From Ferranicluibacter rubi (GTDB lineage: Bacteria > Pseudomonadota > Alphaproteobacteria > Rhizobiales > Rhizobiaceae), in contig NZ_JAANCM010000024.1 of assembly GCF_011603255.1 (NCBI RefSeq), positions 1 through 34,944 of the forward strand: 34,944 bases of DNA. Reading direction: 5' to 3'. Position numbers and translations under genes: made by a program. The notes under the pieces are model-generated. The model was not told where the DNA came from, made no database searches, and saw nothing but the letters and a program-made list of their open reading frames with translations. Positions 4,025 to 34,011 of the stretch are shown piece by piece; within the stretch, counting starts at the first letter, position 1, and each line of letters opens with the position of its first letter.

Positions 4025-5382
4025 GATCGTGTCCCATGGAGTGGTGTAGCTTAGACGGCCACGGCTCATCCCGGAGGGCCGGATGAGTGTCAGCTTGCTG
4101 CTGGCAGGCTGATGAGTGGATCATCGCTCATCGTAGCGATTGTCTCAAGGGTCATATAGCGAGATCGCTGGACGGCCCATTCATCGTTCTGTTCGAGCAG
4201 CAGCGCGCCGACGAGCCTGACGATGGCGTCGTCGTTGGGGAAGATGCCGACGACCTCTGTCCGCCGCTTGATCTCACCGTTCAATCGCTCGATCGGGTTG
4301 GTCGAATGAAGCTTGGCCCAATGCTGTTTGGGAAAGGTCATGTAGGCGAGCACGTCCTGCTCGGCGCTGTCCATAAGGGTGGCGAGCTTCGGCACCTTCG
4401 GCCTGATCTGGTCGGCGACGTTGCGCCACTGGGCGCTTGCCGCCTCCGCTGTGTCCTGGGCGAAGGCCGTGGCGATGAAGGCGGAGACGACGCGCCGGCC
4501 GCTCTTTCCCGCATGAGCCAATGCATTGCGCATGAAGTGCACCCTGCAGCGCTGCCAGGTGGCGGAAAGCACCTTCGATACTGCGGCCTTGATGCCCTCA
4601 TGCGCATCTGAGACGACGAGCTTCACGCCACGCAGACCCCGCCTGGTCAGCTTGCGCAGGAATTCCGTCCAGATCGCCTCGGCTTCGGACGTGCCGACTT
4701 CCATGCCGAGCACTTCGCGTCGACCGTCGGTGTTGACGCCGACGGCGATGATGACTGCAACAGAGACGATGCGACCGCCGCGCCGGACCTTCAGGTAGGT
4801 CGCGTCAATCCAGAGATAGGGCCATTCGCCCTCGATGGGCCGGTCGAGAAAGGCCTTCACCTTCTCGTCGATCTCCTCGCACAGCCGGGAGACCTGGCTC
4901 TTGGAAATGCCCGACATGCCCATCGCCTTGACGAGGTCATCAACCGAGCGGGTCGAAACGCCCTGGATATAGGCTTCCTGAATAACCGCCGTCAGAGCCT
5001 TCTCCGCCATCCGGCGTGGTTCAAGAAAGCTCGGGAAATAGCTGCCGGTGCGAAGCTTGGGAATGCGCAGCTCGACGGTGCCCGCCCGTGTCTCCCAGTC
5101 CCGGTCGCGGTAGCCGTTGCGCTGGGCAAGTCGAAAGCCATTCTTCTCGCCATAGCCCGCACCAGTCTTCGTGCCAACCTCCAGCGCCATCAGTTTCTCG
5201 GCAGCAAAGCCGATCATCTCGCGCAGCAAATCGGCGTCGGCGCTCTTCTCAACGAGTGAGCGCAGGTTCATCATGTCGTCGGTCATCGGTGGAGTCCTTC
5301 AGGTTGGTTCTAAGCAACCCGACCCTACCGGAAATCACCGATGGCTATGAAATCCAGCTACACCACTCCATGGGACACGATC
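4025..5382 (-). mobile_element. Complete IS256-family insertion sequence (1358 bp)
   Basis: The element is bounded by 27-bp perfect terminal inverted repeats, 4025-4051 and 5356-5382 (GATCGTGTCCCATGGAGTGG and its complement, and beyond). It is flanked by an identical 8-bp target duplication, ATAATTTT, at 4017-4024 and 5383-5390. One full-length transposase occupies the minus strand. Intact ends, intact target duplication and an open transposase indicate a recent, potentially active insertion. Confidence 0.95.
4090..5286 (-). CDS. IS256-family (Mutator) transposase
   Basis: A 398-residue DDE transposase. The catalytic core is visible: first Asp in [11 protein letters not shown], second Asp in [20 protein letters not shown] just after it, and the Glu in [13 protein letters not shown]. 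The N-terminal half has the helical DNA-binding region ([28 protein letters not shown]). The length is normal for the family and no frameshift is seen. It fills most of the element and reads opposite to the LysR remnants it interrupts. Confidence 0.96.
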
Positions 5383-6119: not shown

Positions 6120-6536
6120 TCACTCCCGATCAGCGTCTGGGGGCACGGTCTTCGGCCTGACGTAGTCCCTATCAATCTTTCCTTCCTCGGCCTTGTAGAA
6201 GAACTGGCTGTTGACGAGCCATCCCTTCAGCGGGCGGAGCGGCAGAAGGCAGGCAAGAAGTGTTAGGGGCAATGAGGTGAAGAGATGCAACAAGGGTGAA
6301 GGATTGAAAGTGACCTCGATCCAGCAGGCGACTGCGACCGCTGGCACACATGTAAAGCAGATGACGAAGAACGCTGGCCCGTCAGCCGGATCAGCGAAAC
6401 TGTAGTCGAGACCGCAGACTTCGCATGCCGGTTTCAATGTCAGGAAGCCTTCGAAGAGGTGTCCCCGCCCGCACCGGGGGCAAAGCCCTCGGATACCTGT
6501 CTTGAGGGGACGAAGTGGAGGCCATTGGCTGGTCAT
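6120..6536 (-). CDS. DUF983 membrane protein, copy 2
   Basis: A 138-residue DUF983 protein. The N-terminus carries a zinc-ribbon-like CPRCGRGHLFEGFLTL and a second CEVCGLDYS pair, giving two CxxC knuckles. Two to three membrane helices follow (AFFVICFTCVPAVAVACWIEV and LFTSLPLTLLACLLPLRPLKG). The end YKAEEGK resembles its upstream neighbour. Rhizobial DUF983 genes often accompany cytochrome oxidase assembly genes, but none is present here. AAAGGA lies 8 bases before the start. It is 58 bases downstream of the paralogous copy, a tandem duplication that has diverged. Confidence 0.85.
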   Translation of the reverse strand: MTSQWPPLRPLKTGIRGLCPRCGRGHLFEGFLTLKPACEVCGLDYSFADPADGPAFFVICFTCVPAVAVACWIEVTFNPSPLLHLFTSLPLTLLACLLPLRPLKGWLVNSQFFYKAEEGKIDRDYVRPKTVPPDADRE

Positions 6537-6594
6537 CGATCAATCCTTTCTGCATCTAGTGATCGACCGGATGGATACGGCAAACCATGTCCGT

Positions 6595-7014
6595 TCAAAC
6601 CTTGTCCGCGCCTGGAGTTGCCGTCTCAGGCGCTGCATATCCCGACGGAATCTTGCCTCTCCTGGTTTTGTAGAAGAACTGGCTGTTTACGAGCCACCCC
6701 TTCAACGGACGCAACGGCAGTACGCAAGCCATCAGAACGATGGGTAGAGAAACAAGGATGTGCACCCACAATGAAGGGCTCATGGCGATCTCGATCCAGG
6801 CGGAGACGACAACGGCGACCAGAATGAACGTGAAGCAGTTCACGAAGAATGCCGTGCCAGTGGCAGGATCAGCAAATCCGTTGTCCAGACCACAGGCCTC
6901 ACATTTCAGCTTCAGCTTCATAAACCCCTCAAAGAGGTGTCCCTGACCACATCGGGGGCAAAGTCCCCGGACACCCGTCTTCATTGGTGAGAGTGGCTGC
7001 GGCTGGGTTGTCAT
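6595..7014 (-). CDS. DUF983 membrane protein, copy 1
   Basis: A 139-residue paralog of the next gene. It has the same CPRCGQGHLFEGF and CEACGLDNGF knuckles, the conserved FADPATGTAFFVNCFTF, and the shared RPLKGWLVNSQFFYK near the C-terminus. This is the promoter-proximal gene of the set, starting about 300 bases from the divergent MocR regulator. A GAAAGG ribosome site lies about 9 bases from the ATG. The function of the family is unknown; the cysteine pairs suggest metal binding. Confidence 0.87.
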   Translation of the reverse strand: MTTQPQPLSPMKTGVRGLCPRCGQGHLFEGFMKLKLKCEACGLDNGFADPATGTAFFVNCFTFILVAVVVSAWIEIAMSPSLWVHILVSLPIVLMACVLPLRPLKGWLVNSQFFYKTRRGKIPSGYAAPETATPGADKV

Positions 7015-17624: not shown

Positions 17625-18680
17625 ATTAGATGTTTGATCCCGGACTTTGATGGTGCAATCTTGTCCACGGAATGGAGGGAGGCACTATGGGCCAGGTTTT
17701 GCATGGGAGCGCCACGACGACCGAGGCAGTCCGTCGAGCAATACAAAGTAGTCAAGAGAGCCTGAGGTCGCTTTCCAGACGGTACGGGATCAATCAGAAG
17801 ACTGTCGCCAAATGGAAGAAGAGAGCGTCCCTGGCTGATCTGCCGACAGGGCCGAAAGAGCCGCACTCGACAGTTCTCTCGATGGAGCAGGAAGCGGTCA
17901 TTGTCGCTTTCCGCAGGCACACGTTGCTCCCTCTCGATGATTGCCTCTACGCCCTCCAGCCGACGATCCCGCACCTGACACGCTCATCGTTGCATCGATG
18001 CCTTCAGCGCCATGGTATTTCTCGGCTCCCCAATGTCGAAGGCGACAAGCGTCCGAAGAAGAAGTTCAAGAGCTACCCTATCGGCTATTTCCACGTCGAC
18101 ATTGCCGAGGTGCATACGGTACAAGGCAGGCTCTATCTCTTCGTAGCCATTGATAGAACGTCCAAATTTGCCGTTGTTCATTTGGTCGAGAAGGCAACCC
18201 GACGCGTCGCCGGGAACTTCCTACGTGCTCTGGCCGTAGCTGTACCGTACAAGATCCACACCGTGCTTACTGACAATGGAACCCATTTCACCGACCCTAC
18301 TGGCGATGGTTGGACACCTGAAGACATCAAAGCCATGCGCAGGGATAACGTGCCCTTTCGCTGCCATTCTTTCGAGATGGCTTGCTCTGATCTTGATATA
18401 GAGCACCGGCTGACCAAGCCCCGCCACCCACGGACCAATGGCCAGGTCGAGAGGATGAATTGCACACTCAAGGATGCGACGGTAAAACGCTTCCACTACG
18501 ACGACCACGATCAACTACGACAGCGCATGGCTGACTTTATCGATGCATACAATTTCGGCCGCCGGCTGAAGACGCTGCGAGGTCTCACACCATATGAATT
18601 CATCTGCAAAATCTGGACAACAGAGCCGGAAAGATTCACGATTCATCCAATCCATCAAATGCCGGGACTAAACATCTAAT
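17625..18680 (+). mobile_element. IS481-family insertion sequence (about 1056 bp)
   Basis: The ends are imperfect inverted repeats of about 29 bp. The left end begins ATTAGATGTTTGATCCCGG. The complement of the right end begins ATTAGATGTTTAGTCCCGG, and both continue to TTTGATGG. The transposase stop codon is part of the right repeat. I see no convincing target duplication, so it may be old or a product of rearrangement. Confidence 0.82.
17687..18679 (+). CDS. IS481-family transposase
   Basis: A 330-residue transposase beginning MGQVLHGSATTTEAVRRAIQ, as rhizobial IS481 transposases do. An N-terminal helix-turn-helix (LSRRYGINQKTVAKWKKR) precedes an integrase-like core with Asp in FHVDIAEV, Asp in LTDNGTHF and Glu in NGQVERMN. 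The start at 17687 is chosen because GGAGGGAGG lies just upstream; an ATG at 17672 lies within that region. The frame is intact. Confidence 0.94.
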   Translation: MGQVLHGSATTTEAVRRAIQSSQESLRSLSRRYGINQKTVAKWKKRASLADLPTGPKEPHSTVLSMEQEAVIVAFRRHTLLPLDDCLYALQPTIPHLTRSSLHRCLQRHGISRLPNVEGDKRPKKKFKSYPIGYFHVDIAEVHTVQGRLYLFVAIDRTSKFAVVHLVEKATRRVAGNFLRALAVAVPYKIHTVLTDNGTHFTDPTGDGWTPEDIKAMRRDNVPFRCHSFEMACSDLDIEHRLTKPRHPRTNGQVERMNCTLKDATVKRFHYDDHDQLRQRMADFIDAYNFGRRLKTLRGLTPYEFICKIWTTEPERFTIHPIHQMPGLNI

Positions 18681-19069: not shown

Positions 19070-19987
19070 TCAAGCAAACATATTCTCAATCTCCCCTCGC
19101 TGCATGGCGTGTTTATCGGGGTTCTGCTGCTTCAGCTTTGTAAGATTGAGCAACTTCCACCGAACTGCCGGTAGTGCCGCTGCCTGCGGCAACCCGATGG
19201 CGTCGAAATCCGGCTCCGTGTCATGGAGAGAGAGCAGGAACCGCATCGCTTTATCATCGAGGCGGGTTCGAAGGTCATCTGTCAGCCGAGTTCTTGCGTC
19301 TTTGAGCTCAATCAGGCTGACAGGCTCGATGGTCATGCCTTCGAATTCTTTCACGAAGGCTTCTTCGAGTTCGGACAATGACGGATTGATCAGCTCATGC
19401 GGCGGGCGGCCGGAGCTTGCGACATAGATGAGGAAGGTCCGAAACAACGCGTCAGTGAGCCCTTCATTGTCGTAGAGCAGCTTCACGTCGAAGAGATCGC
19501 GCGGGTGCTGGCGGTCCACGGCGGCATGAAGCTTGCCACCAAACAGATCCTCGAAGGACACGACCTGCATTTCGGCAAAGCCGAACGCCTCGGCCACGCC
19601 ATCCGTGATCGCCCGCAGTTCCGGAGGATGCACCGTTCCACGCGCGACCGGCGAGGTCTCGATCTTGATTTCGGTCGTACCCTGCCGGACGAGCACGCGC
19701 GTGTCGTTGTTGCCACCTCCAGCGATACGCTGGACATCGACGCCGCGCAGGTTTTTCAGCAGGTCGTCGCGAATGCGGTCAAGCGCGGCGTCGATACCGC
19801 TGAGCGTTGTTTCCCGATCCTCGATGGGAAGGTAGGTGAGATCGATATCGACCGACAAGCGAGGCATATCCCTGTAGAATAGGTTGATGGCCGTTCCCCC
19901 CTTGAGAGCGAAGACATCCTGCCGCGCGATATAGGGCAACGTCCGGACGAGCAGTTCGACCTGCCGCATATAGCGATCACGCGCCAT
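19070..19987 (-). CDS. abiEii: AbiEii-type nucleotidyltransferase toxin
   Basis: A 305-residue toxin of the AbiE system, a DNA-polymerase-beta-like nucleotidyltransferase. Counting from an upstream ATG at 19993, the family motifs are KGGTAINLFY (31-40) with the DIDLTY acidic pair (49-54), EIKIE (108-112), FEDLFGGKL (147-155) and RDLFDV (165-170), all intact. The start at 19987 is chosen because AAAGGAG lies 7 bases upstream; from 19993 the spacing would be too short. It overlaps the antitoxin gene by 11 bases, so translation is coupled. AbiE systems act in phage defence and plasmid maintenance. Confidence 0.93.
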   Translation of the reverse strand: MARDRYMRQVELLVRTLPYIARQDVFALKGGTAINLFYRDMPRLSVDIDLTYLPIEDRETTLSGIDAALDRIRDDLLKNLRGVDVQRIAGGGNNDTRVLVRQGTTEIKIETSPVARGTVHPPELRAITDGVAEAFGFAEMQVVSFEDLFGGKLHAAVDRQHPRDLFDVKLLYDNEGLTDALFRTFLIYVASSGRPPHELINPSLSELEEAFVKEFEGMTIEPVSLIELKDARTRLTDDLRTRLDDKAMRFLLSLHDTEPDFDAIGLPQAAALPAVRWKLLNLTKLKQQNPDKHAMQRGEIENMFA

Positions 19988-20831
19988 CGACATTCTCCTT
20001 TGGCAGCAGGTCGGCAGGGACCGTTACGCGATAAATCGGGTGGAGCCTTCCGCCTGGAACGAGTGCTCGATCGCCCCGTCCCATATCGATCTGCGATCTG
20101 TCGATATGCTTGAGCCACGCATGCGCGTGCTTGTCGGCATAGACGAAGAACAGGCGTTTCACCTTTACGCTGCGGCACTGGGTCAACAGCGCAGTCAGCA
20201 ATTTCGGGCGCAGATTGACCATTCCCTCAAACACCATGTCGATGTTGTGAAAGCTCTCGTTCTTCGGAAGTTCATCGAGAACCTCAAGTATTGCCCGCTC
20301 TGCCGATGACATTTTGATAGGCCATCGCCACGGGCTCATGGCCAGTTCCTCATCTGGATCATCAGACAGGCTGAATTCGCTGTTCTCTACGCCGTTGTTC
20401 TTGTCGGGGAACAGTCCATGACCTCGTCGGACGAACCTGGCATCGGTTGTCAATGTCATGAGCCAGTCAGGGATATCGGAGCCGTAGAGGTAGACGCGCG
20501 TATCGCCGCCGAGCTGCAGGTAGTGGGTATGGCCACGCAATCCGAGCGCGGTCAGACCTCCAACGTGGAATGCATGTCCCATGATCCATTGCGCGGATAA
20601 CAGGGGGATTTTCCAGCCCGTGACGGCCTGCGTCGTTTCTCTTGCCGAAAATGGGCGTCGGTAGACGCCTGTCGCGATCCGCTCGAGCCAACCCTGTTTG
20701 ATATACGCCGATATGGATTGCCGTGAGATCGCATGGCGTGCCGTCCAGGCCGCATCGACGATGAAGCCCGGCGGAACCGATTGTATAAGGTACTTTAGCT
20801 TTGGCGTCGCCTGTTCATTCATAATGGACAT
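19977..20831 (-). CDS. abiEi: AbiEi-type antitoxin with N-terminal winged helix
   Basis: A 284-residue protein upstream of and overlapping abiEii, in the usual antitoxin-toxin order. The N-terminal 70 residues form a winged helix (ISRQSISAYIKQGWLERIATGVYRRP) as in AbiEi proteins that repress their own operon. The C-terminal domain (LSSAERAILEVLDELPKNESF in outline) matches the family's antitoxin domain. The ATG at 20831 and one at 20822 are both possible; neither has a good ribosome site, so the message may be poorly or unusually translated. A direct repeat just upstream is a plausible operator. Confidence 0.88.
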   Translation of the reverse strand: MSIMNEQATPKLKYLIQSVPPGFIVDAAWTARHAISRQSISAYIKQGWLERIATGVYRRPFSARETTQAVTGWKIPLLSAQWIMGHAFHVGGLTALGLRGHTHYLQLGGDTRVYLYGSDIPDWLMTLTTDARFVRRGHGLFPDKNNGVENSEFSLSDDPDEELAMSPWRWPIKMSSAERAILEVLDELPKNESFHNIDMVFEGMVNLRPKLLTALLTQCRSVKVKRLFFVYADKHAHAWLKHIDRSQIDMGRGDRALVPGGRLHPIYRVTVPADLLPKENVDGA

Positions 20832-25113: not shown

Positions 25114-26034
25114 TCATTTCTGCCTTTTTTCCAGATCGTCGAAGTATGCCTCAAAATACTGGCGCATCAGAATCGACGTAATTGATGGGCTGCGCTGCGG
25201 ATCGATGATGAGAGAGAGCGTGAGGGGTGGCAAACCGCGGTCGCTGAAGCGTAGATAGGCGAGACCGTCGTCCCGCTGGACCTGTGCGCCCTGCGACAAT
25301 GCGATCAGGCCGAATCCCGCACCTTCTCGAACCATCGACCGCATGAGGTCGAGACTATTGGTCGTAAGCACGGGCCGAAGCCGCGTTCCCGTCCGGGCGG
25401 CGGCGACATCGACGGCATCGCGAAGATGGGTGCTGGCATCCGGAATGATTGTTGGATTTTGAAAGAACGCCTCAAGCGAGAGGGTCGCCTCCGGTTCGGG
25501 TAGCCGGGCGGCCGGCACGACGGCGTGCAGATGAAAAGGGGCGGAGCGGGTGACGGTAACGCCGGGCAAGGGCCGCGGGCTGAACGTCAGCCCGAAATCG
25601 GCAAACCCGTCCAGGACAAGTTTACGAACCTGATCGGAGTCGACAACGAGGACATTGTTGCGAATACGGGGATGATCGCGCATGAAGCGGGCCATCGCGC
25701 CGGGAAGGAAATCGAATACGGTTTCCTGCGAAACCGCGATTTTGACCTCACCGCGGCGCAGGCCTTTCAGCTGTTCGATCTCGAACGTGATGCGGGCGTA
25801 ATCCTTGCGCCATCCCTTGACGCCGTGAATGAGGATCTCGCCTGCCGCAGTCAGGCGCATGCCACGCGGCAACCGTTCGAACAGCGCCACGCCCATCTCC
25901 TCCTCGGCGCGGATCAACTGCTTGTCGATGGCGGAAGCGGATACGTTCAGTTCCGCCGCCGCCTTCCGGATGGACCCGAGACGGGCGATGGCCTCTAGAT
26001 ATTGGGCAAAACGGGAGAACAGCAGCCTGCTCAT
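25114..26034 (-). CDS. LysR-family transcriptional regulator of the ECF/phosphoribosyltransferase locus
   Basis: A 306-residue LysR protein from MSRLLFSRFAQYLEAIARLGSIRKAAAELNVSASAIDKQL, with a standard DNA-binding domain and an effector domain rich in the usual motifs (GEVKIAVSQETVFDFLPGAMARF, REGAGFGLIALSQGAQV). The start at 26034 is chosen because the residues before it (in a longer frame to 26145) do not resemble LysR and would overlap the divergent promoter. It is divergent from a phosphoribosyltransferase gene by 111 bases, so it is the probable regulator of the locus at 26146-30491, possibly sensing the transported compound. Confidence 0.9.
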   Translation of the reverse strand: MSRLLFSRFAQYLEAIARLGSIRKAAAELNVSASAIDKQLIRAEEEMGVALFERLPRGMRLTAAGEILIHGVKGWRKDYARITFEIEQLKGLRRGEVKIAVSQETVFDFLPGAMARFMRDHPRIRNNVLVVDSDQVRKLVLDGFADFGLTFSPRPLPGVTVTRSAPFHLHAVVPAARLPEPEATLSLEAFFQNPTIIPDASTHLRDAVDVAAARTGTRLRPVLTTNSLDLMRSMVREGAGFGLIALSQGAQVQRDDGLAYLRFSDRGLPPLTLSLIIDPQRSPSITSILMRQYFEAYFDDLEKRQK

Positions 26035-26039
26035 GGCAG

Positions 26040-26113
26040 ATCGATGGCCCTGTGTTGAGAAAAAGGAAACGCACCGGACGGATCTTGATGTTTGTAAAAG
26101 GCACGCCATCGAT
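26040..26113. promoter_or_regulatory. Divergent LysR/phosphoribosyltransferase control region
   Basis: ATCGATGG at 26040-26047 and CCATCGAT at 26106-26113 form an 8-bp inverted repeat separated by 58 bases, framing the spacer between the two divergent genes. Spaced sites of this sort suit a tetrameric LysR regulator that bends DNA. This is inference from symmetry and position. Confidence 0.35.
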
Positions 26114-26145: not shown

Positions 26146-26835
26146 ATGAACCCGATCATTCCCGAGACCTTTGGTGTGGATATTGCCGGCGAGACGTTCG
26201 ACCTTCCGATCATCGCCCTCAGCGATCGGCGCGCCATTGCGCTGCTCATGGTCATCGAGATGGGCGTGCGCTTCGGCGATCTTGTCGGCGATGCGATGGT
26301 GGCGCGGTTTGCCGCGCTGAAGCCGGATATTGTGGTGGGCAGCGCGACACTCGGCATCCCCGCGGCAATCGAGGTGTCACGCCGTTTCGGGCTTGACCAG
26401 TATGTCATCCTGCAAAAATCGCCCAAATTCCACCTCGCAGAAGCGCTGGTCGAGGACGTCAGGTCTATCACCACCGGCGGCTCCCAGCGGCTTCTGCTCG
26501 ACAGGCGCTCCATTGCGCTCCTGCAGGGCAAGCGCGTGCTGGTCATCGACGATGTAGTCGCGACGGGCTCCAGCATGGCTGCGGCGATCCGTCTGGTGCG
26601 CCGCGCCGGCGCCGAGGTTGTGGGTGCCGGTGCGATCCTTGCAGAGGGACACGCCTGGCGCCACGCGCTGGGCCGGGATGCCGACCTCGTGACCACGCTC
26701 GGCCACATCCCGCAGTTCGATATCGTCGACGGCATAGCCATACCAGATGCAGCAACGGAATATACGGCGCGAACAGGCGCAAGCCATGCGTTCGGTCAGG
26801 ATAATCGGAACGTCGGGAGATGGTCTGCAGGCTAG
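26146..26835 (+). CDS. Phosphoribosyltransferase (adenine/xanthine PRTase-like), copy 1
   Basis: A 229-residue type I phosphoribosyltransferase. The PRPP-binding motif VLVIDDVVATGSS lies at 131-143. SATLGIPAAIEV and YVILQKSPKFHLAEALVEDVRSITTGG match the strand-loop and flexible-loop parts of the adenine PRTase fold. Such enzymes join a base to PRPP. The C-terminal 30 residues are a poorly conserved tail absent from the second copy. GAAGGA precedes the ATG. It lies directly upstream of an ECF transporter, suggesting that the imported compound is a nucleobase or similar. Confidence 0.85.
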   Translation: MNPIIPETFGVDIAGETFDLPIIALSDRRAIALLMVIEMGVRFGDLVGDAMVARFAALKPDIVVGSATLGIPAAIEVSRRFGLDQYVILQKSPKFHLAEALVEDVRSITTGGSQRLLLDRRSIALLQGKRVLVIDDVVATGSSMAAAIRLVRRAGAEVVGAGAILAEGHAWRHALGRDADLVTTLGHIPQFDIVDGIAIPDAATEYTARTGASHAFGQDNRNVGRWSAG

Positions 26836-27058
26836 AGTTCGTCAGGGGATAAAGGGGCACCAGCGTTCCTGAAACGAGAGACAGAAACAAAAAGCGAGGG
26901 TCTTTCAGGGCAGACCAAAACTGACCGGACGGACCAGCGGACAACAGAAAAGCAAGCGGACGGCTCATCAGCCCAACCGCCTTCGACAGACCATAAGGGA
27001 GGTCTCAAGGGGCGCGCGCCATGCCCGAAGACCTGTCTATCTTAACGCAAGGGGAACT
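26836..27058 (+). promoter_or_regulatory. Leader upstream of the ECF genes with alternative pairings
   Basis: This 223-base spacer holds two short hairpins, GGTCT/AGACC (26899-26903 and 26912-26916) and AGACC/GGTCT (26988-26992 and 27001-27005). Because the arms are identical, 26899-26903 can also pair with 26988-26992, so the hairpins could be mutually exclusive, as in attenuators or riboswitches. No known riboswitch class is recognisable to me. The ribosome site AAGGGGAAC follows. Confidence 0.3.
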
Positions 27059-27637
27059 ATGAAAATGCAACAGACAACTCTCTCACACAGTGACGGCAAC
27101 ACGCTCTTTCCGCTCGTGCTGTCCATTGTCGCGGCCGCTGCCACCGGTGTGCTCTGGGCCTATGCCAATCCGATCCAGCTCGTGCCTGGCGTCATCCAGT
27201 GGCGGATTTTCGCCTTCCTTCCGCCGCTGATTGGCATTCTGCTCGGCTGGCGTAGCGGCTTCATCTGCGGCTACCTCGGCACGATCGTCTGGTCGCTTCT
27301 CGCCGGCACGTTCATTCCCGCCCATTCACTGATCGTCGACGGCATCATGGTCGGCCTGACGGGCCTTGCTCCGGGCCTCCTGTTTGATCCGGCAAAGACC
27401 ACTTTCGACCGCACGGTCCTCGTCAAGATCGCGCTTGCCTGCCTTGCCGTTGGCATCGTCATGGTCGCCGCCGTGTCCGCAAGCCTTGCATATCTTGGCA
27501 TCTTCCCGTTCTGGTGGGCCTTCGGTTACATCGGCCTGTCCGACATTGTGCCCATGGTCATCGGTACGCCGCTGCTGATTGTCCCGGCCATGAAGATCCT
27601 GAAAAGCGCCCACCCGGCGGGCTTCAAGCGCTTCTGA
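27059..27637 (+). CDS. ECF-transporter substrate-binding membrane protein (S component-like)
   Basis: A 192-residue membrane protein with about six hydrophobic segments (FPLVLSIVAAAATGVLWAYA, WRIFAFLPPLIGILLGW, GFICGYLGTIVWSLLAG, IVDGIMVGLTGLAPGLLF, LVKIALACLAVGIVMVAAV, DIVPMVIGTPLLIVPAM). This is the size and topology of ECF S components. It is followed by the fused ATPase and the T protein, completing the transporter. It does not look like a vitamin-specific S family I can name, so its substrate is open. The two flanking phosphoribosyltransferases suggest a base. Confidence 0.78.
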   Translation: MKMQQTTLSHSDGNTLFPLVLSIVAAAATGVLWAYANPIQLVPGVIQWRIFAFLPPLIGILLGWRSGFICGYLGTIVWSLLAGTFIPAHSLIVDGIMVGLTGLAPGLLFDPAKTTFDRTVLVKIALACLAVGIVMVAAVSASLAYLGIFPFWWAFGYIGLSDIVPMVIGTPLLIVPAMKILKSAHPAGFKRF

Positions 27638-27656
27638 GACCAACCGGACAGATCAA

Positions 27657-29180
27657 GTGCTCAAGATTACCAGCCTTCGTCTCGGTTTCGGCGGTCCCGA
27701 TCCCGTGATCGCCGAGACGGACTGTCATCTCGAAGAGAGCCAGCGGCTCCTGATCTGTGGCGAGGCCGGCAGTGGTAAGACGACGTTTCTTGCCGCTGCT
27801 GCCGGCCTCATTCCGCGCCTCCTACCGATCCCCGACCATGCGGGCGACGTCACCCTGATGGGCCGCCCGATCGCGACCTTCGACAAGACCGAGCTCTTTT
27901 CCACCATAGCCTTCGTCTCTCAGAACATCGACGATCAGCTCTGGGACCTCTGCGTGGAGGATGTCATTGCCTTTCCCCTCGAAAACCGGGGCGTCGAGAA
28001 ACAGGTGATCCGCGAGCGGTTGCGCACACTGATCGCGGCCTTCGGGATCGAAGCCCTATGCGGGCGCCGGGTGCTGACGCTGTCCGGCGGCGAGCGGCGC
28101 ATGGTGGCGATCGCCGCGGCCCTTGCGGCAAGCCCCTTGATCCTAGTAATGGACGAGCCCACAACCGGCCTCGACCCGGCGGCCCGGGCGCGGCTTGCAG
28201 CACTTCTGCAAACGGTGGCGAGTTCCGTCTCGGCCCTCCTGGTGGCCGAGCAGGATCCGCTGGCACTCCTGTCGGTGATCGACCGGATTGCGCTCCTGTC
28301 CGATCGCCACCTTTCGCAGCCCGTTCCCCCTGCCAACATCGTGCCGCTCGATAACCCCTGGCGCAACGCGGGCCTGTTGCCGCCGCTACGGCAACGCTCC
28401 GAGCGTCCACCCGCTATCCTCGGGCGGCCTCTGCTGGAGGTACGCGGCCTCACCACGCGGCTGGCACGTCCTGACGGCCAGCCGGTTCTCAAGGGGGTGG
28501 ATGTCGAGATCCGCGCCAGCGAGGTTCTGGCCCTGATCGGGCGCAACGGCGCGGGCAAGACGACGCTCTTCAAGGCAATCCTCGGCCTTGAGAAGATCGC
28601 ATCCGGTGCGCTCGTCCTCGACAGGGAGGCCGCCAACTCGTGGACGGTCGCCGCCAGGGCGCGCAAGATTGCCTATATACCGCAGAACATGCGGCACATC
28701 CTGTTCAACATGACGGTGACCGGCGAGGTGATCTTCGCCATCACCGCCGCAAGCGCCACCTCGACGGATCCCAACATTCTCGCGCGGGCCGCAGCGGCGC
28801 TCGATCGTTACGGCCTGTCGGGCTTTGCCGAGGCCAACCCGTTCGTTCTGTCGGCCCGCCAGCAGGCGCTGCTCGGCCTCGCCTGCGCGGATGCGGCCGG
28901 CGCGCTGATCACCATCGTCGACGAACCCCTGCTGGCCCGCGACCTCAAGGGGCGGCGCATGCTCGATCTCTTCATTGCCACCCTGCAGGAAAGTGGTCGA
29001 TCCGTCATGCTGATCTCGCACGATCTCGAACTGGTGGACGATGTGGCGACCCGCATGATGATCCTCGACGACGGCGCGATCGCGTTTGATGGCACGCTCA
29101 ACGAAGGCTGGGAGAGCGCAACCTTCCGCCAGCTCGGTTGGCCGCCGCCCTATCGCCAGATGGCCGGAGAGATCGGATGA
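27657..29180 (+). CDS. Fused double ATPase of an ECF-type transporter (A-A')
   Basis: A 507-residue ABC ATPase with two nucleotide-binding domains. Domain 1: Walker A GEAGSGKTT (35-43), signature LSGGE (142-146), Walker B LILVMDEP (161-168), but Gln199 in VAEQD where the switch His is usual. Domain 2: Walker A GRNGAGKTT (295-303), a degenerate signature LSARQ (398-402), Walker B ALITIVDEP (416-424) and His455 in LISHD. Since each ATP site combines Walker A of one domain with the signature of the other, one site is canonical and the other degenerate. The start is GTG at 27657. It lies 19 bases after the S gene and overlaps the T gene by four. Confidence 0.9.
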   Translation: MLKITSLRLGFGGPDPVIAETDCHLEESQRLLICGEAGSGKTTFLAAAAGLIPRLLPIPDHAGDVTLMGRPIATFDKTELFSTIAFVSQNIDDQLWDLCVEDVIAFPLENRGVEKQVIRERLRTLIAAFGIEALCGRRVLTLSGGERRMVAIAAALAASPLILVMDEPTTGLDPAARARLAALLQTVASSVSALLVAEQDPLALLSVIDRIALLSDRHLSQPVPPANIVPLDNPWRNAGLLPPLRQRSERPPAILGRPLLEVRGLTTRLARPDGQPVLKGVDVEIRASEVLALIGRNGAGKTTLFKAILGLEKIASGALVLDREAANSWTVAARARKIAYIPQNMRHILFNMTVTGEVIFAITAASATSTDPNILARAAAALDRYGLSGFAEANPFVLSARQQALLGLACADAAGALITIVDEPLLARDLKGRRMLDLFIATLQESGRSVMLISHDLELVDDVATRMMILDDGAIAFDGTLNEGWESATFRQLGWPPPYRQMAGEIG

Positions 29181-29857
29181 ACCGGCTGCACGAGATCAAT
29201 TTCTTCTTCAAGCTGGCCTTTGCCTTTTCGGTGATGCTGGTCGCCTGGCTGGTGCCTGGCTGGCGCTTTGGCCTGCCGTTTGCCGTTCTCACCGTCGCCT
29301 TCCTGTGGCTTGCCGGCGTGCCTGGCCTGCGCGGCTACATCAAGGGCGCGCTGCTGCTGTCGGGCATGGTCGTTGTCAGTTGGTTGGTGAACCTCTGGCT
29401 GCAGGGCGCAACGACAGCTGAAGCCCTGCCGATTGCCGCCGGCATGGCTGCGCGCCTCGTGACGACCACGGCCGCCTTCTTCTTCGTCATGGAAACCAGC
29501 ACGCCCGGCTCGATCCTTGCAGCGTCAAGCGCTGCGCGGCTGCCGCCGGTCGTTACGCTTGTCCTGTCGCTGACCTTCGGCATCATCCCCATGCTGCGCG
29601 ACGATTTCGAGCGCATCGCCGATGCCCAGCGCGCACGCGGCATGGAGATCGACGACGTGAGCCTGCCGACGAAACTGCGGTTTGCGCTTGCGCGCGGCAT
29701 TCCGCTTCTCGTCCAGGCCATTCGCATGGCGCACGCCATTTCCTTTTCTCTTTCCATTTACGGGTTCGACCTCAAACAAAAGCGAACCACATGGCGCATT
29801 GTCGGCCCGATGGTCGAGCCTCGCATGAACATGAAGGACAAAGCCGATGACAACTGA
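29177..29857 (+). CDS. ECF transporter transmembrane protein (T component, CbiQ-like)
   Basis: A 226-residue protein with about five hydrophobic helices (INFFFKLAFAFSVMLVAWLVPG, FGLPFAVLTVAFLWLAGV, and others). The cytosolic QRARGMEIDD carries the Ala-Arg-Gly motif by which T proteins dock on the ATPases. The start overlaps the ATPase stop (ATGA at 29177-29180), and its 3' end overlaps the second phosphoribosyltransferase by 11 bases, so the last three genes are translationally coupled. Confidence 0.88.
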   Translation: MNRLHEINFFFKLAFAFSVMLVAWLVPGWRFGLPFAVLTVAFLWLAGVPGLRGYIKGALLLSGMVVVSWLVNLWLQGATTAEALPIAAGMAARLVTTTAAFFFVMETSTPGSILAASSAARLPPVVTLVLSLTFGIIPMLRDDFERIADAQRARGMEIDDVSLPTKLRFALARGIPLLVQAIRMAHAISFSLSIYGFDLKQKRTTWRIVGPMVEPRMNMKDKADDN

Positions 29858-30491
29858 CCCCGCAGACGCAAAAACGGACCCGGCAACCGGACAAAGCTGG
29901 CGGGTGGACGTCGCCGGCTGGCCCATCGATCTGCCAATCGTGGCGATCAAGCCGGACTTTGCCATTTCGCTGATGATGGTGATTGATCTCGGTGTCAAAT
30001 TCGGCGAGCATATCGGACAGGCACTGGCGGCCAAACTCAAGCCGCTCGAGCCCGACATCATCGTCGGCGCGGCGACGCTCGGGATTCCGGTTGCCATCGA
30101 CGTCACCCGTGCCCTCGGCCTCGACGCCTATGTCATTCTGCAGAAATCGCCGAAACTCCATCTCGCAAACGCGCTGGAACAGCGGATTTCATCGATCACC
30201 TCCAAGGGCGAGCAGCGCCTTCTCCTCGACCGTGCGGCGGTTCCGCTGTTGAAGGGCAAGCGCGTCGTCGTCGTCGACGACGTCGTCGCATCCGGCTCCA
30301 GCATGAAAGGCTCGCTGGATCTCGTGCGCAAGGCAGGCGCCGAGGTGGTCGGCATTGGCGTTATTCTGACGGAGGCGACCGACTGGAAGCAGATACTGGG
30401 TGCCGACGAACCCCTCGTCCGTAGCCTTGCACACATTCCCCAGTTTTCACCCGGCCACGACGGCAACTGGGAACCGATTGCCGGCACCTGA
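29847..30491 (+). CDS. Phosphoribosyltransferase (adenine/xanthine PRTase-like), copy 2
   Basis: A 214-residue paralog of the gene at 26146. It has the PRPP motif VVVVDDVVASGSS at 140-152, the near-identical AATLGIPVAIDV and AYVILQKSPKLHLANAL, and an extra polar N-terminus of about 20 residues. It overlaps the T gene by 11 bases, tying it to the transporter more tightly than copy 1. Keeping two diverged copies at the two ends of the locus suggests either two related substrates or a heteromeric enzyme. Confidence 0.85.
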   Translation: MTTDPADAKTDPATGQSWRVDVAGWPIDLPIVAIKPDFAISLMMVIDLGVKFGEHIGQALAAKLKPLEPDIIVGAATLGIPVAIDVTRALGLDAYVILQKSPKLHLANALEQRISSITSKGEQRLLLDRAAVPLLKGKRVVVVDDVVASGSSMKGSLDLVRKAGAEVVGIGVILTEATDWKQILGADEPLVRSLAHIPQFSPGHDGNWEPIAGT

Positions 30492-30605: not shown

Positions 30606-31253
30606 TCACCACCGTAGCCAAAGCCGTCCCATCAAGCCGCCGATTGCTGCGCACAGCACGATGCCGAGCGTGTACCAAAGGGCAACGAAGGCCAAGCCGT
30701 TCTCGATGCAGCCCCAGCTGTAGACCCACGCCCCAAGCGCGCCGGCGGTCATGCCTGCAATGGTTCCACCGAAGGTCGGCGATGTCGGGGCGCTTTTGCG
30801 CAGGAACCAGAATACCGCGGCCATCATTGGTGCTCCTGTCGCAAGGATGATCAGTGGGCAGAACCAGGCGGAGATGCCCATGACGAGCCTCCGGCTTTCT
30901 TCTGGAGAGGATGACTGGCGTATCTGCACCACTGCCATGACGACCAGAAGCGCGTAGACAATCGAGAGGGGAACGGCTGCTCCGATTGGCCGTCCGCCGG
31001 GGCGCGCGACAGCCATCAGGGTGCTGAGCCCGATGATGGCGAGCAGCAGCGGATAGGCGGATTTTATCCAGAAGGCGGGTAGGGACAAGGCGGCGCTAAG
31101 ATCCGGGCGCAGCCCGTGGCCGAGAAGGATCAGCGCTGCCGAGAGCAGCATGCCCGGCATCAGCGCTCCGACGAGAAGCCTCCCGAGCGCATCCTTGCGC
31201 ACCGGCCGGAGATCCCGCACGAGATCGTCGATCAGCTCATTCACCTTTGCCAT
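30606..31253 (-). CDS. NrsF-like anti-sigma factor (DUF1109)
   Basis: A 215-residue membrane protein. A short cytoplasmic N-terminus (MAKVNELIDDLVRDLRPVRK) precedes six hydrophobic helices, the DUF1109 pattern of NrsF anti-sigma factors. Cysteines in AWFCPLIIL and YSWGCIENG match the two conserved cysteines of this family, which in Caulobacter NrsF are needed for sensing metal stress. It overlaps the sigma gene by 17 bases, and GAGAGG precedes the ATG, so the two are co-translated. By analogy it holds the sigma factor at the membrane until a stress signal. Confidence 0.88.
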   Translation of the reverse strand: MAKVNELIDDLVRDLRPVRKDALGRLLVGALMPGMLLSAALILLGHGLRPDLSAALSLPAFWIKSAYPLLLAIIGLSTLMAVARPGGRPIGAAVPLSIVYALLVVMAVVQIRQSSSPEESRRLVMGISAWFCPLIILATGAPMMAAVFWFLRKSAPTSPTFGGTIAGMTAGALGAWVYSWGCIENGLAFVALWYTLGIVLCAAIGGLMGRLWLRW

Positions 31254-31794
31254 GATCGCCTCTCAATCTTGCTGCCAGTGCCTTGATACCTCTGTGGATG
31301 CTGACCTTGACCGTCGCCTCCGACCGTCCCGAATGCAGGGCGGCCTCGGCGATGGACCGACCGTCGAGCCGTACCTGTCGGATCGCCTCCGCCTGCCACG
31401 CGGGAAGGACGGCCAGCAGCCTTTGAATGTCTATCTGTGCGGCCACCGCATCCTCGCGGTAGCCGTCCGGGATGGCTTCCACAGCATCCAGCCCGACGTG
31501 ACCACGTCCACCCGTCCTGCGGTGATGATCCACTAGCTTGTGCCGGGCGATAGTAAAAAACCATGCCGTGAAAGGTCGCTCCCGATCATACGTTATCCGC
31601 CGCTGGTGCAGCGCGAGCAGCGTCTCCTGCACTAGGTCGTCCACATCCGTTTTGTCCGCCCGGGCAAGGCGTCGCCCGTAGTAGTGTTCCAGCAGGTGCC
31701 GGAGCACATCAAGTAGGCACCGATAGGCCTTCTCGTCCCCATCAAGGGACAAGAGCATCAGCACCTTCAGCTCGGACTCGGTTACATCTGTCAT
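31237..31794 (-). CDS. ECF sigma factor (SigF-like)
   Basis: A 185-residue ECF sigma factor. Region 2 is visible (DVDDLVQETLLALHQRRITYDRERPFTAWFFTIARHKLVDHHRR), as is region 4 (LPAWQAEAIRQVRLDGRSIAEAALHSGRSEATVKVSIHRGIKAL). The start at 31794 (MTDVTESELKV) is preferred over a longer frame to 31842 whose extra residues are not typical; the ribosome site is weak. It pairs with NrsF downstream. Candidate self-promoter and divergent-target promoters with the GTAACC -35 of SigF-type factors lie upstream. Confidence 0.9.
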   Translation of the reverse strand: MTDVTESELKVLMLLSLDGDEKAYRCLLDVLRHLLEHYYGRRLARADKTDVDDLVQETLLALHQRRITYDRERPFTAWFFTIARHKLVDHHRRTGGRGHVGLDAVEAIPDGYREDAVAAQIDIQRLLAVLPAWQAEAIRQVRLDGRSIAEAALHSGRSEATVKVSIHRGIKALAARLRGDHGKGE

Positions 31795-31810
31795 GTCTCT
31801 GGGAGGCTCA

Positions 31811-31835
31811 TACGGTGCAGTGCAGAAACGGTTAC
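31811..31835 (-). promoter_or_regulatory. Candidate SigF-type promoter for sigF-nrsF
   Basis: GTAACC (31830-31835, minus strand) is followed after 15 bases by CGTA (31811-31814), close to the SigF consensus GTAACC-N16-CGAA. It lies 17 bases upstream of the chosen sigma start, so a leader would be very short. It implies autoregulation. Confidence 0.5.
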
Positions 31836-31892
31836 AGTGCATCTTGAAAAAAGCGAGCGAATTCCCGGTACGATCACATCGGCGTGATGCCT

Positions 31893-32374: not shown

Positions 32375-33238
32375 ATGTTCGGCTCATCTTCCACGACATC
32401 CGGTCAGCAAACGCTGATCCGCCGTCACAGCCTGACCGTGCGGCTGTCGCACTGGCTGAACGTGCTTGCAATGACAGTCCTTCTCGCTAGCGGATTGCAG
32501 ATCTTCAATGCGCATCCGAGCCTATACTGGGGTCAGTATGGCGCCGATGACGATCCGTCTGTCCTGTCTCTGCAAGCCTTCGAGAACGATGGCGGTTTGA
32601 AGGGCGTCACGCGCGTCGGCCCTCTCTCGCTCGACACCACGGGCGTGCTCGGTGTGTCCGAGGTCGATGGCGAACCCACGGCGCGTGGCTTCCCAGCCTG
32701 GATCACGCTTCCCAGCTATCAGGATCTCGCCACGGGGCGTCGCTGGCACTTCTTTTTCGCCTGGGCCTTCGTCATCAACGGTCTTGTCTATCTCGCCTAT
32801 GGCTTTGTATCGCGGCATTTCCGGCGCGATCTCGTGCCGACGAAAGCCGAGCTGACGCTCGCCCATCTCGGCCATGAGATCGCCGACCATTCCCGGCTGC
32901 GGTTTCCCAAGGGTGAGGAGGCGCGCCACTACAACGCCCTCCAGAAGATAACGTATCTCGTCGTCATCTTCCTAATGCTTCCGGGCATGATCCTGACCGG
33001 CCTCACCATGTCGCCGGGCTTCAACGCGTTCGCGCCCTTCCTGCTCGATCTCTTCGGTGGTCGGCAGTCCGCCCGCACGCTCCACTTCATCTTCGCGACA
33101 TCGCTCGTTGCCTTCGTCGTCGTCCATATCGCCATGGTGCTGGCATCCGGCGTCTTCAACAACATGCGCTCCATGATCACGGGCCGCTACGCGATCCGTA
33201 CGGAACCATCCCTCAAGGCATCAAAGACCGCGCCATGA
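32375..33238 (+). CDS. Cytochrome b561-type membrane protein
   Basis: A 287-residue membrane protein from MFGSSSTTSG. Four helices carry the histidines expected to bind two hemes: LSHWLN, RWHFFFAW, TLHFIFA and VVVHIAMV. It probably passes electrons between quinone and the periplasmic molybdoenzyme whose gene overlaps its stop by four bases (ATGA). A loop after helix 1 (residues 45-110) is unusually long. The start at 32375 follows GGAGGGAA; a longer frame from 32243 lacks similarity. Confidence 0.87.
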   Translation: MFGSSSTTSGQQTLIRRHSLTVRLSHWLNVLAMTVLLASGLQIFNAHPSLYWGQYGADDDPSVLSLQAFENDGGLKGVTRVGPLSLDTTGVLGVSEVDGEPTARGFPAWITLPSYQDLATGRRWHFFFAWAFVINGLVYLAYGFVSRHFRRDLVPTKAELTLAHLGHEIADHSRLRFPKGEEARHYNALQKITYLVVIFLMLPGMILTGLTMSPGFNAFAPFLLDLFGGRQSARTLHFIFATSLVAFVVVHIAMVLASGVFNNMRSMITGRYAIRTEPSLKASKTAP

Positions 33239-34011
33239 ACAATTTTCTCACTCGCCGCCGGTTTCTCATCGGCTCCACGTTGACCGCCTCGACGCTCGGT
33301 CTCGCCGGCTGCGACGCGCTGGTCGAAAACGGTAATGTCCAATCTGTAATCAAGATGGCGGAAAGCCTGACCATGCGGACGCAGCGGTTTTTGATTGGCG
33401 ACACGGCGCTGGCACGTGAGTTCAGCGTGAGCGAGATCTCGCCGACGTTTCGTGCCAACGGAACCTCCATGCCGGACGGCGCAGAATACCAGTCGCTTCT
33501 CGCAAGCCACTTCGCGCAGTGGCAACTGCACGTCGGAGGGCTCGTCGAGCGCCCGGCAAGCATCTCGCTCGCCGCATTGAAGGCGATGCCGGCGCGCACG
33601 CAGATCACCCGGCACGACTGCGTCGAAGGTTGGAGTGCGATCGGCCAGTGGACGGGTGTGCCTCTTGGTGACGTGCTGCGCGCCGCAGGCCTGAAGAAGG
33701 ACGCTCGCTACATCGCATTCCACTGTGCCGACGAATACGAAAAGACCCTCGACGGCAGCGGCTGGTATTATGAGAGCATCGACCTCGTCGATGCCTTCCA
33801 CCCCCAGACCATCCTTGCCTATGCCATGAACGGCCGCGACCTGGAGGTGCCGCACGGCGCACCTTTGCGGCTAAGGGTCGAGCGGCAGCTCGGCTATAAG
33901 CAGGCGAAATATGTCATGCGCATCGAGGCCGTTGCCGATCTCAAGAACCTCTATGGCGGCAATGGCGGCTTCTGGGAGGATCGCGGCTACGAATGGTACG
34001 CCGGGATCTGA
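33235..34011 (+). CDS. Tat-exported sulfite-oxidase-like molybdopterin enzyme
   Basis: A 258-residue protein with a twin-arginine signal (TRRRFLIGS) followed by a hydrophobic stretch and a possible lipobox (LAGC). The core is a sulfite-oxidase/YedY-type domain: HDCVEGWSAIGQWTGVPL contains the Cys expected to hold molybdenum, and FHCADEYEKT, PQTILAYAMNG and HGAPLRLRVERQLGYK are family motifs. With the b-type cytochrome it forms a two-gene periplasmic oxidoreductase similar in plan to MsrP/MsrQ, but the cytochrome is not MsrQ-like in length. The substrate is unknown. Confidence 0.87.
   Translation: MNNFLTRRRFLIGSTLTASTLGLAGCDALVENGNVQSVIKMAESLTMRTQRFLIGDTALAREFSVSEISPTFRANGTSMPDGAEYQSLLASHFAQWQLHVGGLVERPASISLAALKAMPARTQITRHDCVEGWSAIGQWTGVPLGDVLRAAGLKKDARYIAFHCADEYEKTLDGSGWYYESIDLVDAFHPQTILAYAMNGRDLEVPHGAPLRLRVERQLGYKQAKYVMRIEAVADLKNLYGGNGGFWEDRGYEWYAGI

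Follow-up and report, generated by a model that had tools for sequence, protein, structure and literature searches.

A predicted energy-coupling factor transporter operon with its own phosphoribosyltransferases in Ferranicluibacter rubi, a candidate importer of a purine-type base

Energy-coupling factor (ECF) transporters are known for the uptake of vitamins and metals; queuosine precursors are the purine-like case among their substrates. The vitamin transporters (FolT, ThiT, RibU, BioY, PanT, and others) share the fold of the substrate-binding component (S-component), a T protein, and two ATP-binding cassette (ABC) domains. For HtsTUV and MtaT, the substrates are predicted or unknown. Both are named as ECF systems in the part of the TCDB family work that was available (PMC3654945). 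QueT and QrtT, which serve queuosine precursors, are ECF importers of purine-like bases. According to the available parts of the reports, QrtT takes up preQ1, queuosine, and queuine (PMC11477304, PMC11130926), and the operon partners of these transporters are QueK and QueL, not phosphoribosyltransferases (PRTs). In this study, we analysed a stretch of 34,944 nucleotides from Ferranicluibacter rubi (assembly GCF_011603255.1, contig NZ_JAANCM010000024.1, positions 1 to 34,944; hereafter the window), which carries an ECF-type gene set bracketed by two PRT genes at 26146-30491. The best explanation of this locus, which we favour with moderate confidence, is a dedicated ECF importer of a purine-type base that is trapped inside the cell as a nucleotide. 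No description of an ECF-PRT pair was found among the matches listed in the open-access literature, a scope outside which most subscription papers lie.

The five structural genes lie on the plus strand. PRT1 (26146-26835) encodes a type I phosphoribosyltransferase (PF00156, E 1.2e-15) with the phosphoribosyl pyrophosphate (PRPP) loop DDVVATGSS. It is followed by S (27059-27637), an ECF S-component by predicted fold (AlphaFold model and Foldseek) with 70 related loci; a fused EcfA-EcfA' ATPase of 507 residues (27657-29180; ABC_tran of Pfam in two stretches); T (29177-29857), an EcfT/CbiQ-type transmembrane component (CbiQ, PF02361, E 1.4e-17); and PRT2 (29847-30491), a second type I PRT (PF00156, E 1.1e-16; PRPP loop DDVVASGSS). 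A LysR-type regulator gene (25114-26034, minus strand; HTH_1 and LysR_substrate of Pfam) is divergent from PRT1. This layout, overlaps included, had been proposed from the letters of the DNA and was confirmed by open reading frames and Pfam. S, ATPase, T, and PRT2 are co-directional neighbours and form a predicted operon: 19 bases separate S from the ATPase gene, the ATPase and T genes share 4 bases, and the T and PRT2 genes share 11. The gap between PRT1 and S is 223 bases; hence, the tight block is S-ATPase-T-PRT2. The ratio of nonsynonymous to synonymous substitution rates (dN/dS) was 0.03-0.22 for the five structural genes in comparison with five relatives.

Related loci were collected from genome contigs, scanned with the S alignment via two peptide patterns, so more distant relatives were missed. 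The scan gave 70 loci, several of them from very close genomes; 65 are alphaproteobacterial and 5 are cyanobacterial (L074-L078). The record of one locus, L062, says Mycobacterium, yet it groups with Inquilinus in the PRT and ATPase trees and is probably mislabelled. In 69 of the 70 loci, cyanobacteria included, S is followed by matches to the ATPase, T, and a downstream PRT, some of them in damaged form: the PRT of L074 is present as a fragment only, and frameshifts interrupt S and the ATPase gene of L073. The exception is L078, in which S is truncated and the other operon genes are absent. This linkage, together with the dN/dS values, is more than chance would give. The expectation that S would co-occur with both PRTs held for the downstream PRT, the pair being present in only 25 of the 70 loci. 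The next gene belonged to no shared cluster at 40 loci upstream and at 50 downstream (at most 69 loci examined); with flanking genes this variable, the S-ATPase-T-PRT unit seems to move as a whole. Its occurrence is patchy, with 5 of 297 genomes of the order and 13 of 247 of the family carrying it, the genome of the window counted in each. Across the phylum, the S profile found only that genome (1 of 398) in a loose scan with at most eight candidates scored per genome. S is carried on six plasmid records, two of them from one strain; Rhizobium tropici CIAT 899 has S on its plasmid. Salipiger mucosus DSM 16094 has two operon versions, a divergent copy with a single PRT and a copy with both (L061, L079). 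A Rhizobium tumorigenes plasmid record in which S has no match holds an apparent operon remnant, a two-piece sequence that resembles PRT2 (L132:6001-6394, 85% identical).

S was modelled with AlphaFold from 54 aligned sequences, picked for spread from the 71 S proteins of the window and the 70 loci. The model has six helices and a mean predicted local distance difference test (pLDDT) score of 85.9. The best 21 Foldseek matches to the PDB were all ECF S-components (E 0.003-0.17, probability 0.94-1.00, template modelling (TM) score by target length 0.44-0.68). Their ligands are folate, thiamin, riboflavin, biotin, pantothenate, and others, with no single family prominent. By predicted fold, S looks like the substrate-binding component of an ECF transporter. 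The sequence-only reading had suggested this structure prediction and also a comparison of S with the S-component families; the latter gave no match above cut-off in Pfam or NCBIfam and assigned no vitamin family. The nearest Pfam family to the window S was DUF2232 (E 0.0039, 16.9 of 27.8 bits), no NCBIfam family matched it, and the S profile had no match among PDB sequences even at E 10. Relatives of S also stayed below cut-off with two ECF S-component families, three with PF07155 (16.6-19.2 of 26.7 bits) and one with PF12822 (15.7 of 30.7 bits). The S family is unnamed in Pfam and NCBIfam, a comparison outside which HtsT, MtaT, and the S proteins of the 2009 survey lie; the window S likewise has no match to QueT or QrtT in these two libraries. 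Two outcomes had been named as damaging to the sequence-only reading, an S protein from a known vitamin family and a lack of co-occurrence with PRTs in other genomes; neither was found, since S is in no known family above cut-off and a PRT lies downstream in 69 of the 70 loci.

In known S-components, the loop between helices 1 and 2 closes over the binding site. Residues 33-55 of S, which include this loop, are invariant or at least 90% conserved at every position in the 54 sequences. S has the highest median identity to the window across relatives among the transporter proteins (S 82%, T 73%, ATPase 56%), which would fit a single ligand shared by the relatives. Upstream of S, no clear conserved motif was seen across the loci. 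The name "aminotriazole resistance protein", which the Rhizobium etli 8C-3 record gives to S (L080:6007-6579), was rejected as a probable mislabel; the papers listed for this phrase, judged by title and abstract, deal mainly with fungi. The yeast protein of that name is a major facilitator superfamily pump.

The fused ATPase is matched by the ECF_ATPase models of NCBIfam below cut-off. Among its 68 relatives longer than 450 residues, the Walker A pattern is present in half 1 of 63 and in half 2 of all 68; LSGGE or LSGGQ stands in the first ABC half of every one of the 68. The second ABC signature is LSARQ or LSARE in 38 and another form in 4, and the pattern is unmatched in 26; mostly altered in this way, it indicates that one of the two ATPase sites is probably degenerate. 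T stays below the cut-off of the CbiQ equivalog TIGR02454 (45.9 of 111.8 bits), and the AQRARG motif is found in 50 of 69 T relatives. Taken by their families and order, S, T, and the two ABC domains are a dedicated (group I) ECF module, for which transport itself is predicted. In contrast to the vitamin transporters, its S has no sequence match in the PDB, its ATPases are fused, and it comes with a dedicated PRT.

The 95 PRTs of the window and the loci were represented by an alignment of 56, picked for spread. Both PRT types keep the DD and G of the PRPP loop as well as further core residues. The best profile matches in the PDB were the Thermus thermophilus adenine phosphoribosyltransferase (APRT) entries 5zgo (E 2e-31) and 6fsp (9e-31), followed by an adenine phosphopsicosyltransferase, 7f06 (E 6e-25). 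From its name, we take 7f06 to be AgmE of angustmycin synthesis. The PRT2 model (pLDDT 92.5) had Thermus APRT2 5zgo as its best Foldseek match (TM 0.90 by target length), and 5zgo, 6fsp, 7f06, and 1vch led the ranking. 5zgo, 6fsp, and 7f06 are thus relatives of PRT1 and PRT2 in both fold and sequence, at 30-33% identity to the PRT2 model in Foldseek. Two PRTase models of NCBIfam score both enzymes below cut-off: NF005592 (143 bits) gives 124.8 for PRT1 and 116.8 for PRT2, and NF004689 (175 bits) gives 124.1 and 118.2. PRT1 and PRT2 are type I phosphoribosyltransferases of the Thermus APRT branch, with predicted activity. In the part of the report available, TthAPRT, which may not be the protein of 6fsp, converted adenine, 2-chloroadenine, and N1-methyladenine, converted little N6-benzyladenine, and rejected guanine, hypoxanthine, and 1,2,4-triazole-3-carboxamide (PMC6317416).

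Matches of the PRT profile in the 297 genomes fell cleanly into two sets: ten, from eight genomes, reached E 5e-89 or lower, and 25 followed at 2e-45 to 9e-37. The latter form a sister class, in which genes for nucleoside hydrolase and adenine deaminase are both close by at 6 of the 25 loci; five of the 25 are short stretches. In the purine salvage cluster of Sinorhizobium meliloti pSymB, a locus beyond the 25, a sister-class PRT (36% identity to PRT2) lies near genes for adenine deaminase, nucleoside hydrolase, an NCS2-family permease, and allantoin use, and the stretch shown holds no ECF genes. With adenine-type enzymes as PRT relatives and a sister class accompanied by purine genes, a purine base is the best guess for the family.

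The gene order, protein families, predicted folds, and conserved linkage are as observed above; from them we infer that the base is a purine, which way it is transported, that it is trapped, and which ligand LysR responds to. S would bind a purine-type nucleobase, probably one like 6-aminopurine, on the outer side of the inner membrane, with the fused ATPase and T driving its release into the cell. PRT2, plus PRT1 where present, would then join the base to PRPP to give a nucleotide. The nucleotide cannot leave, so import would be pulled forward. Such import and trapping by phosphoribosylation was also the central inference of the sequence-only reading. LysR, co-inherited with PRT1, would probably regulate the divergent promoter, with the base or the nucleotide as the signal. 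If this is right, metabolic trapping is built into an ECF operon. The tie between a conserved S family and an activating PRT also yields a sharp substrate prediction for an orphan importer.

Several results weigh against an importer of a purine-type base. The S model has no Foldseek match in the PDB at E 0.001 or lower. The canonical apt model TIGR01090 has a cut-off of 185.85 bits, and PRT1 and PRT2 score only 41.3 and 39.3. In 3 of the 8 genomes with operon-type PRTs, these enzymes occur without S (L113-L115); the other five carry S. Queries for nucleoside hydrolase, adenine deaminase, NCS2 permease, allantoin genes, and Bmp-type proteins were unmatched in the 70 operon loci at E 1e-15; hence, the purine link comes from the relatives of the PRT. 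Even in the sister class, NCS2 and allantoin genes matched at none of the 25 loci. The genome of L113 holds 15 nucleoside hydrolase genes, so the presence of one there is a weak link. Moreover, canonical apt is above cut-off in 31 of the 34 operon genome entries (at most 33 distinct genomes, since G111 and G677 give identical places and were taken as one); the entries lacking it are Hansschlegelia quercus (G111/G677) and Aureimonas altamirensis A31.

The surroundings of two PRTs without S are as follows. At L113 (G293:C5:246001-265000), the PRT2 relative (75%) is accompanied by short-chain dehydrogenase/reductase and S58 peptidase genes, lies near genes for a Bmp-type binding protein and a nucleoside hydrolase, and faces a second ECF system, the S of which belongs to PF12822 (13651-14223). 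At L114 (G058:C1:2280001-2299000), the PRT2 relative (62%) is beside an aldehyde dehydrogenase gene (Pfam); genes for a glucose-methanol-choline (GMC)-like oxidoreductase, a hydrolase, and a sugar-type ABC transporter were recognised by eye only. A deaminase gene near the operon at 6 of the 70 loci, all from the Brucella/Ochrobactrum group, was discarded as a partner; it is outside the operon, on the opposite strand, past an ankyrin-like gene and a different LysR gene.

The importer could instead serve a non-purine heterocycle, such as a vitamin precursor, a pyrimidine, a triazole, or a pyridine-like compound, activated by these PRTs with PRPP. ECF systems carry mostly vitamins, S forms a separate family as far as Pfam, NCBIfam, and the PDB show, most operon genomes already have canonical apt, and the L114 enzyme, 62% identical to PRT2 and without S, has aldehyde dehydrogenase and ABC transporter neighbours and no purine genes. 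However, the nearest solved PRTs are adenine-type by both sequence and fold, and the sister class is tied to adenine deaminase and nucleoside hydrolase at 6 of 25 loci. For a triazole in particular, the rejection of 1,2,4-triazole-3-carboxamide by Thermus TthAPRT, as given in the available part of that report, is unfavourable (PMC6317416). We therefore consider a non-purine substrate rather unlikely.

Returning to the import of a purine-type base, the apt survey bears on which purine is concerned. Canonical apt is already present in most operon genomes, so an importer of plain adenine would be redundant in part, and a modified purine is a possible substrate. We tentatively raise the possibility that the operon scavenges, with high affinity, a rare or modified purine, either a ring- or N6-substituted adenine, for example a cytokinin-like one, or a methylated base from RNA decay, with a SLOG protein that cleaves or senses the nucleotide formed taking part in some forms. 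If so, it would be, to our knowledge, the first case in which an ECF transporter for a purine base of the salvage type comes with an activating enzyme of its own. An unusual adenine as the base would mean that a trace purine is taken up by rhizobia, marine alphaproteobacteria, and some cyanobacteria.

The origin of the two PRTs, which are 55% identical, was addressed with a tree of 95 rows: two from the window, 25 upstream, and 68 downstream PRTs (the L074 fragment was dropped, and L078 has none). The PRT1 clade holds 26 rows including the window. It is sister to PRTs that stand alone, downstream, in the operons of Bradyrhizobium (L068, L069, L071, L072) and Rhizobiales bacterium 62-17 (L070). 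The PRT2-type clade holds 58 rows, namely the window and 57 loci (25 dual, 32 single). The basal position of three Inquilinus-type PRTs is unresolved, and three cyanobacterial PRTs, 33-35% identical to PRT2, fall outside. In a quick ATPase tree of 69 rows without bootstrap, all 26 dual-operon rows form one group (Shimodaira-Hasegawa-like approximate likelihood ratio test, SH-aLRT, 92). Given this single group and the sister position of PRT1 to the sole PRTs of the other operon type, the dual operon may have arisen once, by gaining a LysR-PRT1 module from that type. A recent tandem duplication of the PRT gene within the operon was rejected, since in the tree PRT1 clusters (98/100) with PRTs that are the only ones in a different operon type.

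An obligate form of the PRT1-PRT2 heteromer suggested earlier in the sequence-only reading, or a division of labour between two clearly different bases, would account for the maintenance of both genes. Both are under purifying selection in the dual operons compared (dN/dS), and the dual operons form the one group in the quick ATPase tree. Against this, a sole PRT is of the PRT1 type in 5 loci and of the PRT2 type in 32, with both types together in 25; each type thus serves an importer alone elsewhere, which makes an obligate heteromer unlikely. Only about ten near-fixed differences, mostly conservative, distinguish the two types. The most striking difference is in the PRPP loop, with Thr in PRT1 and Ser in PRT2; the Thr is also found in the four Bradyrhizobium/62-17 and three cyanobacterial enzymes compared. 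So few differences give little support to two very different bases, and two related bases remain compatible with them. On these grounds, we regard an obligate pair or a split between dissimilar bases as improbable.

Every one of the 25 loci that have PRT1 upstream also has a related divergent LysR gene; of the remaining 45, one does, L070, which lacks an upstream PRT. Between LysR and PRT1, a block at 26050-26099 (no strand assigned) is conserved in 23 aligned rows of 26, the window included; L019, L049, and L065, with longer spacers, were left out. In L032 and L038, the block contains the inverted repeat GCGTTGA/TCAACGC around an A-rich spacer, which fits the T-N11-A site of LysR regulators. 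The block is a probable LysR operator and promoter region. Control by a riboswitch was rejected: the window had no Rfam match, and no known riboswitch was found near the operon in nine relatives, in one of which (L070) a cobalamin riboswitch lies more than 4 kb away.

Two loci have an additional SLOG cluster 4 gene (PF18306, above cut-off) between LysR and the rest of the operon (L019:6637-7236 and L070:7373-8005), and L065:6960-7052 keeps a remnant of 27-31 residues. At E 1e-15, the SLOG gene was found in 1 of the 297 genomes of the order, the one holding L019; hence, the gene seems linked to this operon. Among SLOG proteins are the LOG phosphoribohydrolases, enzymes that release the base from a purine nucleotide. 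The SLOG protein of L019 and L070 may act on the PRT product, either by cleaving it or as its sensor. Adenine is handled in angustmycin synthesis by a phosphoribohydrolase (AgmA) as well as by a PRT (AgmE), according to the available part of that report (PMC8599513).

It is highly improbable that the PRTs themselves act as regulators in the manner of Bacillus subtilis PurR, binding a ligand and PRPP, rather than as enzymes: PurR is among their sequence and fold matches but ranks below the Thermus APRT entries in both, Pfam finds no DNA-binding domain in PRT1 or PRT2, and the PRPP-loop residues are kept in both types.

Elsewhere in the window, an NrsF-type gene adjoins a gene for an extracytoplasmic-function-type sigma factor (30606-31842), and a molybdopterin oxidoreductase gene is at 33235-34011. 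A type IV toxin-antitoxin pair, AbiEi/AbiEii, was recognised by Pfam at 19070-20831. Two transposase-type genes, of the Mutator family and the integrase-core type, are at 4090-5286 and 17672-18679, and two adjacent DUF983 genes at 6120-7014 are likely a duplication.

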